Source: an uncultured Clostridia bacterium (GTDB lineage: Bacteria; Bacillota; Clostridia; Oscillospirales; Feifaniaceae). From it: DNA of 64,000 nucleotides. Both the position numbers and the translations under genes were made by a program. The stretch is taken from the NCBI GenBank assembly GCA_904420075.1, contig CAJFTX010000012.1, positions 1-64,000 on the forward strand, given 5' to 3'. Below, in pieces: positions 705 through 31,967 of this stretch (position 1 is the first letter of the stretch; every line of letters starts with the position of its first letter). The notes beneath the pieces were generated by a model, which did not search any database, was not told where the DNA came from, and worked only from the letters and a program-made list of their open reading frames with translations.

Positions 705-1898
705 ATGGATTTTAAAAGTATTAAGGCGCGGGACAAGGAGTATATCGCAAACAGCTACAACCGGCAGGACGTCTGGTTTAAGAAGGGACGCGGCGCGCGA
801 CTCTATGACGACCAGAACCGCGAGTATATCGACTTCGCGAGCGGGATCGGGGTTTCCAGCCTTGGCTACGGGGACAAGCAGTATTTGAAAGCGGTCTTAA
901 AACAGCTCGGAAAGCTCTGCCACAGCTCCAACCTCTTTTACACGGCGCCGGACGGACGGCTCGCAGCGCAGCTCTGCCAGCTCTCGGGGATGAAGAAAGT
1001 GTTCTTCTCGAACTCGGGCGCGGAGGCCAACGAGTGCGCCATCAAGGCGGCGAGGAAGTACAGCTTTGATAAGTACGGGGAGGGACGGAGCACGGTTCTC
1101 ACCCTTCGGAATTCTTTCCACGGGCGGACGGTGACCACCCTTGCCGCGACCGGACAGGACAAGTTCCACAACTATTTTTTTCCCTTTACCGAGGGCTTTC
1201 GCTATGTGGACGCGAACGACGTCGGCGGCACGGTGGCGGCGATGGACGATACGGTCTGCGCCGTGATGCTCGAGCCGGTGCAGGGGGAGGGCGGCGTGCT
1301 GCCGCTCTCCGGAGACTATGTGCGCGCGGTGGCGAAGGAGGCGGCGAAGCGGGACATCCTTCTCATTATGGACGAGGTGCAGACCGGTATCGGCCGCACC
1401 GAGAAATTCTTCGGATTCGAGCACTTTGAGGTGAAGCCGGACATTGTGAGCCTCGCCAAGGGCCTCGGCGGCGGGCTGCCGATCGGCGCGACGCTGCTCG
1501 GCGAGAAAGTGGAGCGGGTCTTCGGCTATGGCGACCAGGGGAGCACTTTTGGCGGGAATCCGGTGGTCTGCGCCGGGGCGTGCGAGGTGGTGCGCCGGGT
1601 GTCGCAGCCGGCCTTCCTCGACGAGGTGGCGAAGAAGGGCGCGCTCATCCGGAGCTTTGTGGCGGAGATTCACTCCCCCTATGTGAAGGAGGTCCGCGGC
1701 CGCGGGCTGATGCTCGGGCTCGCGCTCGAGGGGATCGAGGCCGCCGAGCTCTCGAAGAAACTGCTCGCGGCGGGCCTTGTGACGCTGACCGCGGGCGGAA
1801 ATACGCTGAGACTGCTGCCGCCGCTTATCATCAGCGAGAGCGAGATCGAGCGCGGCGTAAAAATTCTTGGAAAGACGCTGAAAGGAATGGAAAAATGA
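705..1898 (+). CDS. argD: acetylornithine aminotransferase
   Basis: PLP-dependent class III aminotransferase making N-acetylornithine from N-acetylglutamate semialdehyde. I choose the ATG at 705 (MDFKSIKARD) because a GGGAGAGAG ribosome site sits just upstream and the protein then has the normal length of 397 residues. The frame is open further upstream to 630. Visible family marks are the FSNSGAEANE glycine-rich PLP phosphate segment, the SFHGRT motif, the LIMDEVQTGIGRT aspartate motif and SLAKGLGGGLPIG with the Schiff-base lysine near residue 252. The stop overlaps the argF start (ATGA at 1895-1898), so translation is coupled. Ornithine aminotransferase is the alternative, but the arg neighbours favour ArgD. 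Confidence 0.95.
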   Translation: MDFKSIKARDKEYIANSYNRQDVWFKKGRGARLYDDQNREYIDFASGIGVSSLGYGDKQYLKAVLKQLGKLCHSSNLFYTAPDGRLAAQLCQLSGMKKVFFSNSGAEANECAIKAARKYSFDKYGEGRSTVLTLRNSFHGRTVTTLAATGQDKFHNYFFPFTEGFRYVDANDVGGTVAAMDDTVCAVMLEPVQGEGGVLPLSGDYVRAVAKEAAKRDILLIMDEVQTGIGRTEKFFGFEHFEVKPDIVSLAKGLGGGLPIGATLLGEKVERVFGYGDQGSTFGGNPVVCAGACEVVRRVSQPAFLDEVAKKGALIRSFVAEIHSPYVKEVRGRGLMLGLALEGIEAAELSKKLLAAGLVTLTAGGNTLRLLPPLIISESEIERGVKILGKTLKGMEK

Positions 1899-2803
1899 TC
1901 GCAGGAAAGAAGGACTTTTTGAAGCTCCTGGACCTGGAGCGTGATGATATTCTGGAGATTCTGGAGCTCGCGGACCGGCTGAAGGGCGGCGAGAAGTGCA
2001 ATGCGCTTGCAGGCAAGTCGGTCGGGCTGATTTTTGAAAAGTCGTCCACCCGCACGAGAGTTTCGTTTGAGGTCGGAGTGCACCAGCTCGGGGGGTACCC
2101 GCTCTTTTTGGCGAGCTCCCACTCGCAGCTCGGCCGCGGCGAGCCGATTGAGGACACCGCCCGGGTGCTCTCGCGGTATCTCGACGGAATTATGATCCGC
2201 ACCTTCGGGCACGACCGGGTGGAGAACCTTGCGAAGTACGCCTCGGTGCCGGTGATCAATGGGCTGACCGACCTCGCACACCCCTGCCAGGTGCTGGCGG
2301 ATCTGCAGACGGTCAGAGAGCACAAGGGCAAGCTCGAGGGGCTGAAGATGGCCTACATCGGCGACGGGAACAACATGGCGAATTCGCTGATCGTCGGCGG
2401 GCTCAAGGTGGGGATGGAAGTCGCCTGCGCGAGTCCGGCGGGCTATGAGCCGGACGCGAGCGTGCGCGCCTATGCGGAGGGCACCGGCAGATTTACGCTG
2501 ACGGCCGACGTCCTCGAGGCGGCGAGAGACGCGGACGTGCTCTTCACCGACGTCTGGGCCTCGATGGGCCAGGAGGAGGAGGCCGAGGAGCGCCGCCGGG
2601 TGTTCGAGGGCGTGTACCAGATCAATGACAAGGTGATGGCCGCCGCGGCGAAGGGTGCGATGGTGCAGCACTGTCTGCCCGCGCACCGCGGGGAGGAGAT
2701 CACGGCCGACGTCTTTGAGGCGCACGCGCGGGAGATCTTCGACGAGGCGGAGAACCGCCTCCACGCGCAGAAGGCCGTCATGGTCAAGTTGATGGGAGAA
2801 TGA
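1895..2803 (+). CDS. argF: ornithine carbamoyltransferase
   Basis: Transfers the carbamoyl group to ornithine to give citrulline, the step after ArgD in the cytoplasmic arginine pathway. The 302-residue protein carries the carbamoyl-phosphate motif STRTR near residue 50, HPCQ near residue 130, and the ornithine-binding HCLPAHRGEE near residue 260. It starts at the ATG inside the ATGA overlap with argD; upstream in-frame codons read through argD and are not a real extension. A strong terminator follows directly, making it the last gene of the arginine transcript. Confidence 0.96.
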   Translation: MIAGKKDFLKLLDLERDDILEILELADRLKGGEKCNALAGKSVGLIFEKSSTRTRVSFEVGVHQLGGYPLFLASSHSQLGRGEPIEDTARVLSRYLDGIMIRTFGHDRVENLAKYASVPVINGLTDLAHPCQVLADLQTVREHKGKLEGLKMAYIGDGNNMANSLIVGGLKVGMEVACASPAGYEPDASVRAYAEGTGRFTLTADVLEAARDADVLFTDVWASMGQEEEAEERRRVFEGVYQINDKVMAAAAKGAMVQHCLPAHRGEEITADVFEAHAREIFDEAENRLHAQKAVMVKLMGE

Positions 2804-2808
2804 AGTTT

Positions 2809-2843
2809 GCGCTATCTCTAATTTGGGATAGCGCTTCTTTTTT
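2809..2843 (+). terminator. terminator of the arg operon
   Basis: Stem GCGCTATC / GATAGCGC with a 10-nt loop followed by TTCTTTTTT, six bases after the argF stop. Classic Rho-independent terminator. Confidence 0.9.
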
Positions 2844-2858
2844 AGGGAGGGATGTTGT

Positions 2859-3707
2859 ATGACCCTTTCCGAGATCCGCGCGATTCCGGCGATCGACATC
2901 CACAGCCACTTCGGCGAGTGGGAGCGGGACGCGGCGCGCGAGCCGGGCCGGGAGCTGATCGCGGGTGGGAGGGCGGAACTGAGAGAGCAGATGCGGCTTT
3001 CCAACATCGCGCTCTCGGTAAATTCCCATTTCTACGGAATTTTTCCGCGCGGCGGAGGGGATGCGGTGGAGGGGAACCGGCGCTGCGTGGCGGCGGTGGA
3101 GCGGGAGGAGAATCTGCTCATGTGGGCGATTTTAAATCCGCTTCAACCGGAGAGCTTTGCGCAGGTGGAAGCGCTTCTGTTGCACCCGAAGTGTATCGGC
3201 ATCAAGCTGCATCCGGAGGAGCACCGCTATCCGATTGCGGACTACGGGGAGCGCATCTACGAGTTCGCGGCGAAGCATCGCGCGGTGATCGACACCCACA
3301 GCGGCGAGGCGCTCAGCATGCCGGAGGAGTTTGCGGTGTTTGCCAACCGCTACCCCGAGGTGACGACTATTGTCTCCCATCTGGGCTGCGGCTATGACGG
3401 CGCCTTTGACCACCAGATCCGCGCTGTTCAGAGGAGCGTGCACGGCAATCTCTATACCGACACATCGAGCGGAAAGTCGCTCTTCTGCAACCTTTTGGAG
3501 CGCGCAGTGCGGGAGATCGGATCGGAGCGGATTCTCTTCGGCACCGATGCGGGCTGCTACTTCAGCCCAATGCAGCGGGCGCGCGTCGACTGTGCGCAGA
3601 TTGGCGACGAGGAGAAGAAAAATATTCTCTACCGCAACGCACTGCGTCTCTTTCCCCGCCTGCGGGAGCGGTATGAACGGATGTGTGAGAAGATGAGAGG
3701 AGAATAG
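2859..3707 (+). CDS. amidohydrolase-family metal-dependent hydrolase
   Basis: A 282-residue TIM-barrel hydrolase of the amidohydrolase-2 type. Metal ligands can be read in order: the DIHSH motif near residue 13, KLHPEEH near 115, DTHSGEA near 147, SHLGCG near 171 and the late GTDAG aspartate near 228. Family members hydrolyse or decarboxylate small cyclic or phenolic substrates, but nothing here shows which substrate. Start ATG 2859 has AGGGAGG seven bases upstream. It stands alone, downstream of the arg terminator and upstream of a ruined Nudix gene, so context gives no help. Confidence 0.8.
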   Translation: MTLSEIRAIPAIDIHSHFGEWERDAAREPGRELIAGGRAELREQMRLSNIALSVNSHFYGIFPRGGGDAVEGNRRCVAAVEREENLLMWAILNPLQPESFAQVEALLLHPKCIGIKLHPEEHRYPIADYGERIYEFAAKHRAVIDTHSGEALSMPEEFAVFANRYPEVTTIVSHLGCGYDGAFDHQIRAVQRSVHGNLYTDTSSGKSLFCNLLERAVREIGSERILFGTDAGCYFSPMQRARVDCAQIGDEEKKNILYRNALRLFPRLRERYERMCEKMRGE

Positions 3708-3715
3708 AATACAAA

Positions 3716-4165
3716 GAGATCTCATTTTTTCGCGGTGAGGACTTTGTTTTTCTCACCGGGCAGGCTGCTGTTCCACGGAGGGAGGGGGCTGCTCCAGAGA
3801 GCGGCGGGTAGCGGCTTCTGTGTGAGTCCCGGCGGGCATGTCGCTTTCGGAGAGACGAGGAGACGCTCGTCCGGGAATTTTGTGAGGAGATGGGGCGGCG
3901 GCTGGCGCTCATCGGAGAGAACTTTTTTCCTGGACGGACGGGATGCCCTTGCCGGCAGGCATCTCTATTACGAGGTGGAGCTTGCGGATGAGCGCCAGAT
4001 CCCGTTCGGGGGGGGATGAGATGGAGGGGGACTACATCCGCTTAAATTTTGCTGGATATCGCTTGACCGGCCGCGGGAGATTATCCTCTATCCGGTGGCG
4101 GTGGCAAAAGAGCTGCCCTCACTTCCGGATGGGATGGAACACTTTTTTTGGTGCGGGAATAAAAA
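3716..4165 (+). pseudogene. Nudix hydrolase, multiply frameshifted
   Basis: No single frame is open, but successive frames join into a typical Nudix protein. An N-terminal piece (FFRGEDFVFLTGQA) is followed by LLFHGGRGLLQRAAGSGF and SPGGHVAFGET in another frame. The second half of the Nudix box (ETLVREFCEEMGRRL) lies in a third frame, then DGRDALAGRHLYYEVELADE, then DRPREIILYPVAVAKELPS and DGMEHFFWC. At least four shifts are needed, two near homopolymers (T run near 3925, G run near 4011-4017). The number of shifts in one gene while all neighbours are intact favours true decay over sequencing error. The original substrate is unknown. Confidence 0.75.
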
Positions 4166-30389: not shown

Positions 30390-30521
30390 TTATGCTACAG
30401 ATTTGAAGTCTTGCGGGGTTTTGCGTATTTTCTCCACCGTATCAGGATTTGAATGTTGCTTTTTATATTTGGGATAACTCCTCGGCTTCTGAGGGAGTTG
30501 TAATTTTAATTGATAAACTGG
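30390..30521 (-). pseudogene. C-terminal remnant of an unidentified protein
   Basis: A reverse-strand frame without a start reads PQKPRSYPKYKKQHSNPDTV then EKIRKTPQDFKSVA-stop. About 43 lysine-rich residues are open in frame directly downstream of the methyltransferase. It looks like the tail of a gene cut by insertion or deletion. I do not recognise the family with confidence. Confidence 0.35.
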
Positions 30522-30526
30522 TTATT

Positions 30527-31315
30527 CTATTCCTTTCTGAAAACATCTAACATATGTGCCGTGGCACCAGCCATATCTTTGCGTTCACAGATGCAAAGAT
30601 GATACTTCATATACATCTCAAACGTTTTCTCGTCCATTTCATCAACTGCGCTTCCGATAAAACGTGTCAGCATATCGGTTCCTATATAGTGAAGCCTTTC
30701 GGTACTGAAATGGCTCATCAGCTCGTTGACATCTTCCTGTCGGTAAAGTGCAAATACTTCTTTAGGAGTTGAACTGAGCTTGAAGGTTTCAAAGTCGACC
30801 AAATCATTATGTTTTCCGCTCTGAAACCCGCCGCGCTGAAAACCAAAGTGATATACGGTAATATCGTTATTGCAATATGCCGCAAATACAATGCCGCCTT
30901 TCCTGGTTACACGAATCGCCTCGCTCATAGCAGCAAACTTATCCTCATCGGTATAGAGATGATACATAGGGCCCAACAGAAGTGTGATGTCATACTGATC
31001 TGAAGCAATATTCTGAAGGTTTACGGCATCGCCTTGTTGAACCGTAATGTGCTCTCCATCCTTCGTATTTGTCCGGAAAACTTCAATGTTCCGCTCCATC
31101 AGCTCCACGGCATCTACGTGATACCCCTTCTGTGCGAAATAGTGAGAATATCGACCGGTGCCCGCGCCGATCTCAAGGAGCCGCATGCCGGGTTTCAGAT
31201 ATTTCTCGACATAATGAATCGTAGTCAGAAACTCGACCATACCGCGCTTGGAAGTCAGACGTGCGTCTTCGTTGTGTGTAGTGTAGTAGTTTGTGAGTGC
31301 TTCCATTCTCTCCAT
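30527..31315 (-). CDS. class I SAM-dependent methyltransferase under attenuator control
   Basis: A 262-residue Rossmann-fold methyltransferase. Motif I is LLEIGAGTGRYSHYF near residue 49, motif II YHVDAVELMERNIEVF, and motif IV ITLLLGPMYHLYTDEDK near 110. The C-terminal third (RQEDVNELMSHF ... MLTRFIGSAVDEM) is a helical cap; substrate unknown. ATG 31315 has GGGAGG 7 bases upstream; the frame opens slightly earlier. Codon use is much more AT-rich than neighbours. Upstream lie a promoter, a 36-residue leader peptide and a terminator hairpin, an arrangement known from inducible antibiotic-resistance genes. No resistance function is shown. Confidence 0.85.
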   Translation of the reverse strand: MERMEALTNYYTTHNEDARLTSKRGMVEFLTTIHYVEKYLKPGMRLLEIGAGTGRYSHYFAQKGYHVDAVELMERNIEVFRTNTKDGEHITVQQGDAVNLQNIASDQYDITLLLGPMYHLYTDEDKFAAMSEAIRVTRKGGIVFAAYCNNDITVYHFGFQRGGFQSGKHNDLVDFETFKLSSTPKEVFALYRQEDVNELMSHFSTERLHYIGTDMLTRFIGSAVDEMDEKTFEMYMKYHLCICERKDMAGATAHMLDVFRKE

Positions 31316-31337
31316 GACTCTACCTCCCAAAAGATAT

Positions 31338-31378
31338 CAAAAACGGTGCAAATCGAAAATTCCCTCGACTTGCACCGT
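31338..31378 (-). terminator. attenuator between leader peptide and methyltransferase
   Basis: On the minus strand ACGGTGCAA ... TTGCACCGT with an extended TCGA/TCGA inner stem, then TTTTT, 20 bases before the methyltransferase ribosome site. As it lies between leader and gene it must be read through for expression. Confidence 0.8.
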
Positions 31379-31411
31379 CAATATCCTAAAGCCTTATAAT
31401 CCTATCACAGA

Positions 31412-31522
31412 CTATACTGGAATTTGGGTACGACAATACAAGACTGATGAATCCCAATAACGGATATGTGCGCCGCGCATAGTAATAGTGTTGACGTTAA
31501 GAGCAAAGATACTGACTAACAT
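31412..31522 (-). CDS. 36-residue leader peptide of the methyltransferase
   Basis: A short gene beginning MLVSIFALNVNTITM and ending WDSSVLYCRTQIPV. AAAGGAG stands 7 bases before ATG 31522, which is itself about 35 bases behind a consensus promoter. It is followed by the attenuator hairpin and then the methyltransferase. Ribosome stalling or slow translation on this peptide would be expected to decide whether the terminator forms. Too short for a family call. Confidence 0.75.
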   Translation of the reverse strand: MLVSIFALNVNTITMRGAHIRYWDSSVLYCRTQIPV

Positions 31523-31557
31523 TGCCGTACTCCTTTCAAAAGAATGAATTAAAGCGT

Positions 31558-31586
31558 AATATATCGTAATTTCATGAGTTTGTCAA
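31558..31586 (-). promoter_or_regulatory. sigma-A promoter of the leader peptide-methyltransferase unit
   Basis: Minus strand TTGACA (31581-31586), 17-base spacer, TATATT (31558-31563). Confidence 0.8.
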
Positions 31587-31653
31587 TATCCCCAAATGTG
31601 AAAATAGCAGCAAGGAACATCCCTGCACCGCTTTCTTTCAGCTATAGATCAAG

Positions 31654-31967
31654 TCATTGTTGAATCTCCATTGTTCTGGTTCGAATGTTGCCTATTCGAC
31701 ACACGCCATGCTTTGGCCTTTCTGTCACTTCCTCGCGCTCCGAGCTCTGTTTTACAAGCTGGAAGAATATTTCTTCTGCCTGTTTATCAATGTCGGCAAG
31801 ATAGCCTTCAGCTTGCAGGCGGTCAGCAGATTATTCTGCGGCGTGTCCGTAGATATCTCCTGTACCGAGGCACGAGATTTGATAATCACCCTGTATTCAT
31901 ATCCAACACCCGTCTGCTCAAATAAACGGATGTCTCCTTGTACCATCCATCGCTCCTGTTTGCCCAT
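31654..31967 (-). pseudogene. TnpV transposon protein remnant
   Basis: Joined frames give a typical TnpV, a small protein of clostridial mobile elements. The upstream frame holds IRLFEQTGVGYEY. After a shift come IQGDYQISCLGTGDIYGHAAE, a stop codon, then LQAEGYLADIDKQAEEIFFQ, LVKQSSEREEVTE and a worn IGNIRTRTMEI tail before TGA at 31654. The original start may be the ATG at 31967. One frameshift and one in-frame stop mark it as dead. It shows the AT-rich patch is a relic of a mobile element. Confidence 0.7.

Follow-up and report, generated by a model that had tools for sequence, protein, structure and literature searches.

A leader RNA that is probably a ribosome-mediated transcription attenuator was found on the minus strand of the window (the whole stretch of 64,000 nucleotides that was analyzed), where its sequence and those of its relatives suggest that it would turn on a detoxification-type methyltransferase when ribosomes slow in a leader open reading frame (ORF). 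Comparison of related loci confirms that the layout is genuine and broadly conserved and makes this leader a candidate for ribosome-mediated attenuation, which is a known kind of control, and the leader family itself is apparently undescribed as far as the literature and databases searched show.

Organization of the locus

The features of the locus are listed below, with regions 1 to 4 denoting the segments that take part in the pairings 1:2, 2:3, and 3:4.

31558..31586 (-), sigma-70-type promoter TTGACA-17-TATATT, with 11 of 12 consensus matches
31521..31536 (-), leader ribosome site and region 1 (AAAGGAGTACGGCAAT)
31530-31521 (-), pairing segment of region 1 (GTACGGCAAT), partner of region 2
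31412..31522 (-), leader ORF of 36 codons (MLVSIFALNVNTITMRGAHIRYWDSSVLYCRTQIPV), with AAAGGAG ahead of the ATG at 31522
31454..31456 (-), Trp codon 23 (TGG), predicted last point at which a ribosome still permits the antiterminator
31428..31442 (-), region 2 (CTTGTATTGTCGTAC), partner of region 1 or region 3
31369..31379 (-), region 3 (GACGGTGCAAG), 5' arm of the terminator and antiterminator partner of region 2
31336..31379 (-), intrinsic terminator (regions 3:4) with T-run; stem at 31379-31342, 17 pairs, loop of 4
30527..31315 (-), MT262, an intact class I SAM-dependent methyltransferase of 262 amino acids, with GGGAGG and ATG at 31315
~30438..30519 (-), start of a decayed GNAT acetyltransferase gene, recognized by DNA identity to the gene in relatives
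~31653..31815 (-), TnpV relic with broken frame (PF14198, E value of 4.6e-7)

A preliminary description of this DNA had claimed a promoter, a ribosome site with a 36-codon ORF, a terminator hairpin with a T-run, and GGGAGG followed by a class I methyltransferase, and all of these were confirmed: the promoter at 31586-31558, the ORF at 31522-31412, the hairpin with 17 pairs and a loop of 4, and the methyltransferase as an intact gene whose product matches Pfam Methyltransf_25 with an E value of 8e-15. The AT-richness described for the block was likewise evident, at 39 to 46% GC against ~60% for the surrounding DNA. Promoter-like matches within the window were not above chance (3 found versus 4.3 expected); the layout is more than chance because it is conserved across relatives. 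The promoter is near-identical at locus L064, and a similar one is visible in most relatives. The fold of the leader RNA outscored 200 of 200 shuffled sequences (z score of -3.6).

The dead TnpV gene reported upstream was also recovered, with its frame broken. What had been read downstream as the truncated tail of a lysine-rich protein turned out to be an off-frame reading of the decayed GNAT acetyltransferase start, which has 73 to 85% DNA identity to the gene behind the methyltransferase in L060, L019, L063, and others; in relatives this GNAT gene is intact behind the methyltransferase. The proposal that the cassette had been mobilized on a TnpV element was not supported as a general rule. 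In the window the TnpV gene is present as a broken relic alone, and among the other fetched loci L064 alone has a TnpV block next to it, which makes TnpV no general carrier. At L064, which comes from another family of the same order, the sequence from the TnpV relic through the promoter and leader to the terminator can be aligned with that of the window (upstream 610 bases, ~72% identity), and an S66 peptidase gene occupies the place of the methyltransferase gene. Judged by this alignment, the two loci hold a single regulatory block ahead of two different genes. A search for an empty site via the flanking nucleosidase gene found no syntenic copy in same-family genomes.

The broken TnpV and GNAT parts, together with the single copy of the leader element and no other found in a search of the host's own genome, would fit a decaying cassette that is no longer relevant to its host, a reading that would leave the mechanism in relatives unaffected. 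We consider such decay unlikely, as the promoter, leader, pairings, terminator, and ribosome site are intact and the methyltransferase frame is intact with its catalytic motif included.

The methyltransferase and the distribution of its leader

AlphaFold2 predicted a confident class I fold for MT262 (mean pLDDT of 93.8). The nearest solved folds, with TM-scores of ~0.6 to 0.7, were TM1389, the tRNA methylase CmoM, and small-molecule methylases such as RebM; MT262 shares the class I fold with these proteins, but its identity to them is 13 to 19%, and no shared substrate can be inferred. The structure-based search for rRNA or drug methylases proposed earlier returned class I folds of a generic kind without assigning a specific substrate class. 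An Erm or RsmA rRNA adenine methylase was tried as a candidate and rejected, with 26.5 bits for Erm against an NCBIfam cut-off of 212 and 26.5 for KsgA against 171.

In a single scan, 84,980 species genomes yielded 56 methyltransferase loci, with proteins 37 to 89% identical and nearly all from gut Clostridia known from metagenomes. A related leader lies upstream of the methyltransferase in 41 of the 55 testable relatives, and about fourteen are without one. A leaderless relative at L038 (positions 1355-4083) has a GNAT-like gene behind it and sits between apparent rimM and trmD genes, in a core rRNA/tRNA processing operon. No leader was found at a plasmid-labeled relative in Subdoligranulum variabile (52%) or at a phage-labeled relative (36%).

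A covariance model built from 39 of the methyltransferase leaders detected the element with good scores in ~50 of the 394 genomes of the host's order. Class- and phylum-wide searches with the model gave few matches, mostly weak, and strong matches were almost restricted to the host's order; three family-level searches added further elements. Among the Rfam covariance models, no family matched the window or the six relatives searched. The earlier view of an attenuator-type regulated leader was upheld across gut Clostridia, in which start, hairpin, and gene order are kept. The refutation that had been proposed, a lack of conserved peptide start, frame, and hairpin in homologous loci, did not come about, with the proviso that the reading frame varies through region 2 although the start, the open frame, and the Trp codon are kept.

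Other genes behind the same leader

Several kinds of GNAT acetyltransferase are also encoded behind the leader, along with an S66 and an S51 peptidase, a nucleosidase-like protein, a protein that carries a "PHAVGK" motif but matches nothing in Pfam, and further methyltransferases, some of them GNAT-methyltransferase and GrpB-methyltransferase fusions. The leader further precedes a protein of the streptomycin adenylyltransferase type, which scores 348 bits with PF04439 yet falls below the NCBIfam ANT(6) cut-off. At least one of these gene types was flagged in the fetched stretch at 46 of the 56 methyltransferase loci, a count that is inflated because one query was a methyltransferase that matches MT262. 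The leader keeps company with resistance-type enzymes, in agreement with the resistance context that had been suggested. Because that company consists of GNAT and ANT(6)-type enzymes, we lean toward MT262 being a modifier of a translation inhibitor; a link to antibiotics is plausible.

Several of these loci have unusual arrangements. Tandem leaders precede two different methyltransferases at L023 (positions 653-2867), the first without a Trp codon and the second with one. At L103, L104, L106, and L113, the first ORF encodes a GNAT-methyltransferase fusion, and there is no Trp at the switching point. At L143 (positions 1501-2310), the place expected for the regulated gene, immediately after the leader, is taken by an IS200/IS605-like transposase gene.

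Alternative RNA pairings

Region 1, which consists of the ribosome site and leader start, is complementary to region 2, which lies toward the end of the ORF. The latter is also complementary to region 3, and region 3 to region 4. Pairs changed on both sides numbered 5 of 10 for 1:2, 8 of 11 for 2:3, and 12 of 14 for 3:4, and on most measures the covariation of all three pairings exceeds that of shuffled and slid controls. Because the covariance-model alignment, A2, splits region 2, the 2:3 pairing was tested by partner swapping, which is independent of alignment. Across 93 elements, a region fitted its own partner better than swapped ones (P = 4e-12 for 2:3 and 7e-14 for 1:2). The antiterminator (2:3) and the terminator (3:4) are mutually exclusive, as these covarying helices share region 3.

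The terminator was always present in the minimum-energy fold of the full-length leader, and in the truncated transcript without a ribosome 2:3 was favored over 1:2 in most leaders. The off state would therefore rest on folding order and not on equilibrium.

Besides the TGG, the most conserved positions lie in the pairing arms and the ribosome site. Strong conservation of the RNA with little conservation of the peptide could point to a riboswitch or an RNA that binds a protein, with no role for the short ORF, but conservation of this kind leaves no obvious unpaired aptamer core, an in-frame TGG despite a varying frame requires translation, and Rfam gave no match for the sequences searched. We regard this explanation as highly improbable.

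Translation of the leader ORF and the Trp codon

An in-frame Trp codon stands just before region 2 in 39 of 40 methyltransferase leaders. Most loci have the region 2 box in frame 0, about ten have it in frame 1, and one has it in frame 2. The spacing between TGG and box changes accordingly (-9, -10, and -8), which keeps the TGG in frame. The leader frame is open in 75 of 75 non-redundant leaders, which follows from the search itself, since an open frame behind a ribosome site was the criterion for choosing ORFs; the other two frames are open in 12 and 17. The in-frame Trp and the mostly closed other frames suggest that the leader ORF is translated. The peptide is variable apart from Trp, and substitutions by codon position (18, 32, and 27) show no third-position excess, so the peptide itself is hardly constrained. 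With a variable peptide and an in-frame TGG, selection therefore seems to act on the reading frame and on the Trp codon, not on the peptide.

The arrest-type leader peptide known from inducible resistance genes consequently proved a poor model here, because the peptide is unconserved except for one Trp codon. An erm-like arrest peptide, with which the nascent chain and one drug would jointly stall the ribosome, would share the same kind of layout of leader, attenuator, and methyltransferase gene. Unlike in erm-type leaders, however, there is no conserved arrest motif, Trp alone being conserved, and the region 2 frames differ among relatives; we find an arrest peptide improbable. The locus also differs from erm translational attenuation in that the 17-pair stem and its T-run lie upstream of the gene's ribosome site and do not mask that site.

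Leaders were folded with a ribosome mask covering 15 nucleotides upstream and 15 to 16 nucleotides downstream of the P-site, in transcripts ending at region 3. For the window, P-site codons 1 to 22 permitted 2:3, and codon 23 (Trp) onward did not. Among 48 leaders, 2:3 formed in 45 with Trp in the A site, in 35 with Trp in the P site, and in 5 one codon later, with almost no 2:3 beyond that. In this folding model, the Trp codon marks the switching point.

An in-frame Trp was present in 56 of 57 leaders of the MT262 family versus 15 of 40 leaders of other genes, counts that are uncorrected for kinship. Among non-redundant leaders the counts were 42 of 43 versus 10 of 32 (Fisher P = 2e-10), leader kinship again being uncorrected. 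L155 was counted as "other" in this test and later proved to belong to the MT262 family. At L069 (positions 1501-1706, minus strand), a Trp-type leader with Gly replacing Trp lies ahead of a "PHAVGK" protein and not a methyltransferase.

Proposed mechanism

Comparison of the relatives has shown conservation of the three pairings, of the open leader frame, and of both the presence and the position of the Trp codon, and the following mechanism builds on this conservation. If no ribosome translates the leader, region 1 would pair with region 2 upon the synthesis of the latter, and transcription would stop at the terminator 3:4. A ribosome held between the start codon and the position with Trp codon 23 in the A site would leave region 2 free, and region 2 could then pair with region 3 before region 4 exists, allowing RNA polymerase to continue into the gene. 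A ribosome past the Trp codon would cover region 2, and the terminator would form. The decision would be kinetic, made through the order of folding during transcription. We infer that the signal is slow translation, caused by a drug or by lack of charged Trp-tRNA, and the methyltransferase would presumably inactivate the inducing agent or protect against it. Two counterpoints are that a ribosome within the ORF leaves 1:2 physically unblocked and that some fourteen methyltransferase relatives lack the leader.

Among the features of the system, the Trp codon stands out as both the most unusual and the easiest to test. A sharper form of the attenuator explanation makes this codon itself the sensor: the leader would report ribosomes waiting for Trp-tRNA, owing to a shortage of charged Trp-tRNA, an inhibitor of TrpRS, or a drug that arrests at an incoming Trp, and the methyltransferase would answer that threat. 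The enrichment of Trp in MT262-family leaders agrees with this, as does the location of Trp at the last permissive ribosome position, with the remaining peptide free to vary. Classical amino acid attenuators, however, have several codons for the amino acid, and here there is a single one; the four GNAT-methyltransferase fusion leaders have no Trp before region 2, no Trp-related gene was found behind the leader, and kinship was not removed from the enrichment test. A Trp sensor is accordingly possible but somewhat doubtful. It can be put forward tentatively that a Trp-gated attenuator specifically pairs one methyltransferase class with a threat that leaves ribosomes waiting for Trp-tRNA, while Trp-less sister leaders serve other detoxification genes; if this is true, such leaders could be used to track down as yet unrecognized resistance genes in gut Clostridia.

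Comparison with known attenuators

The attenuator proposed here resembles in layout the bmrB leader of Bacillus subtilis, a leader ORF with three alternative stem-loops ahead of the drug resistance ABC transporter operon bmrCD, in which ribosome-targeting drugs slow leader translation and so prevent termination (PMC4191407). Unlike bmrB, the leader family described here serves many unrelated modifying enzymes, and its MT262-family members have a fixed Trp codon. The trp attenuator of Escherichia coli, with its regions 1 to 4 and Trp codons in the leader (summarized in PMC4191407), has in common with our leader the 1:2, 2:3, and 3:4 pairings and leader Trp codons. In contrast to trp, region 1 here comprises the ribosome site and start of the leader, the Trp codon is usually single, and the controlled gene is one for a methyltransferase and not for Trp synthesis. 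A leader peptide and attenuation are also described for the B. subtilis resistance methyltransferase gene yxjB (tlrB), whose product methylates 23S rRNA (PMC6851288). The two systems are alike in having a leader peptide and attenuator before a methyltransferase gene, but MT262, unlike YxjB, falls far below the cut-offs of the rRNA methylase models that it matched.

Implications

A single family of translation-sensing leaders is apparently common to many unrelated modifying enzymes, in bacteria mostly known from metagenomes alone. Should it respond to translation inhibitors, the leader would mark inducible resistance genes, some of them from protein families that the searched resistance models do not name. 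The fixed Trp codon would then be a direct, testable clue to the agent that the methyltransferase guards against.
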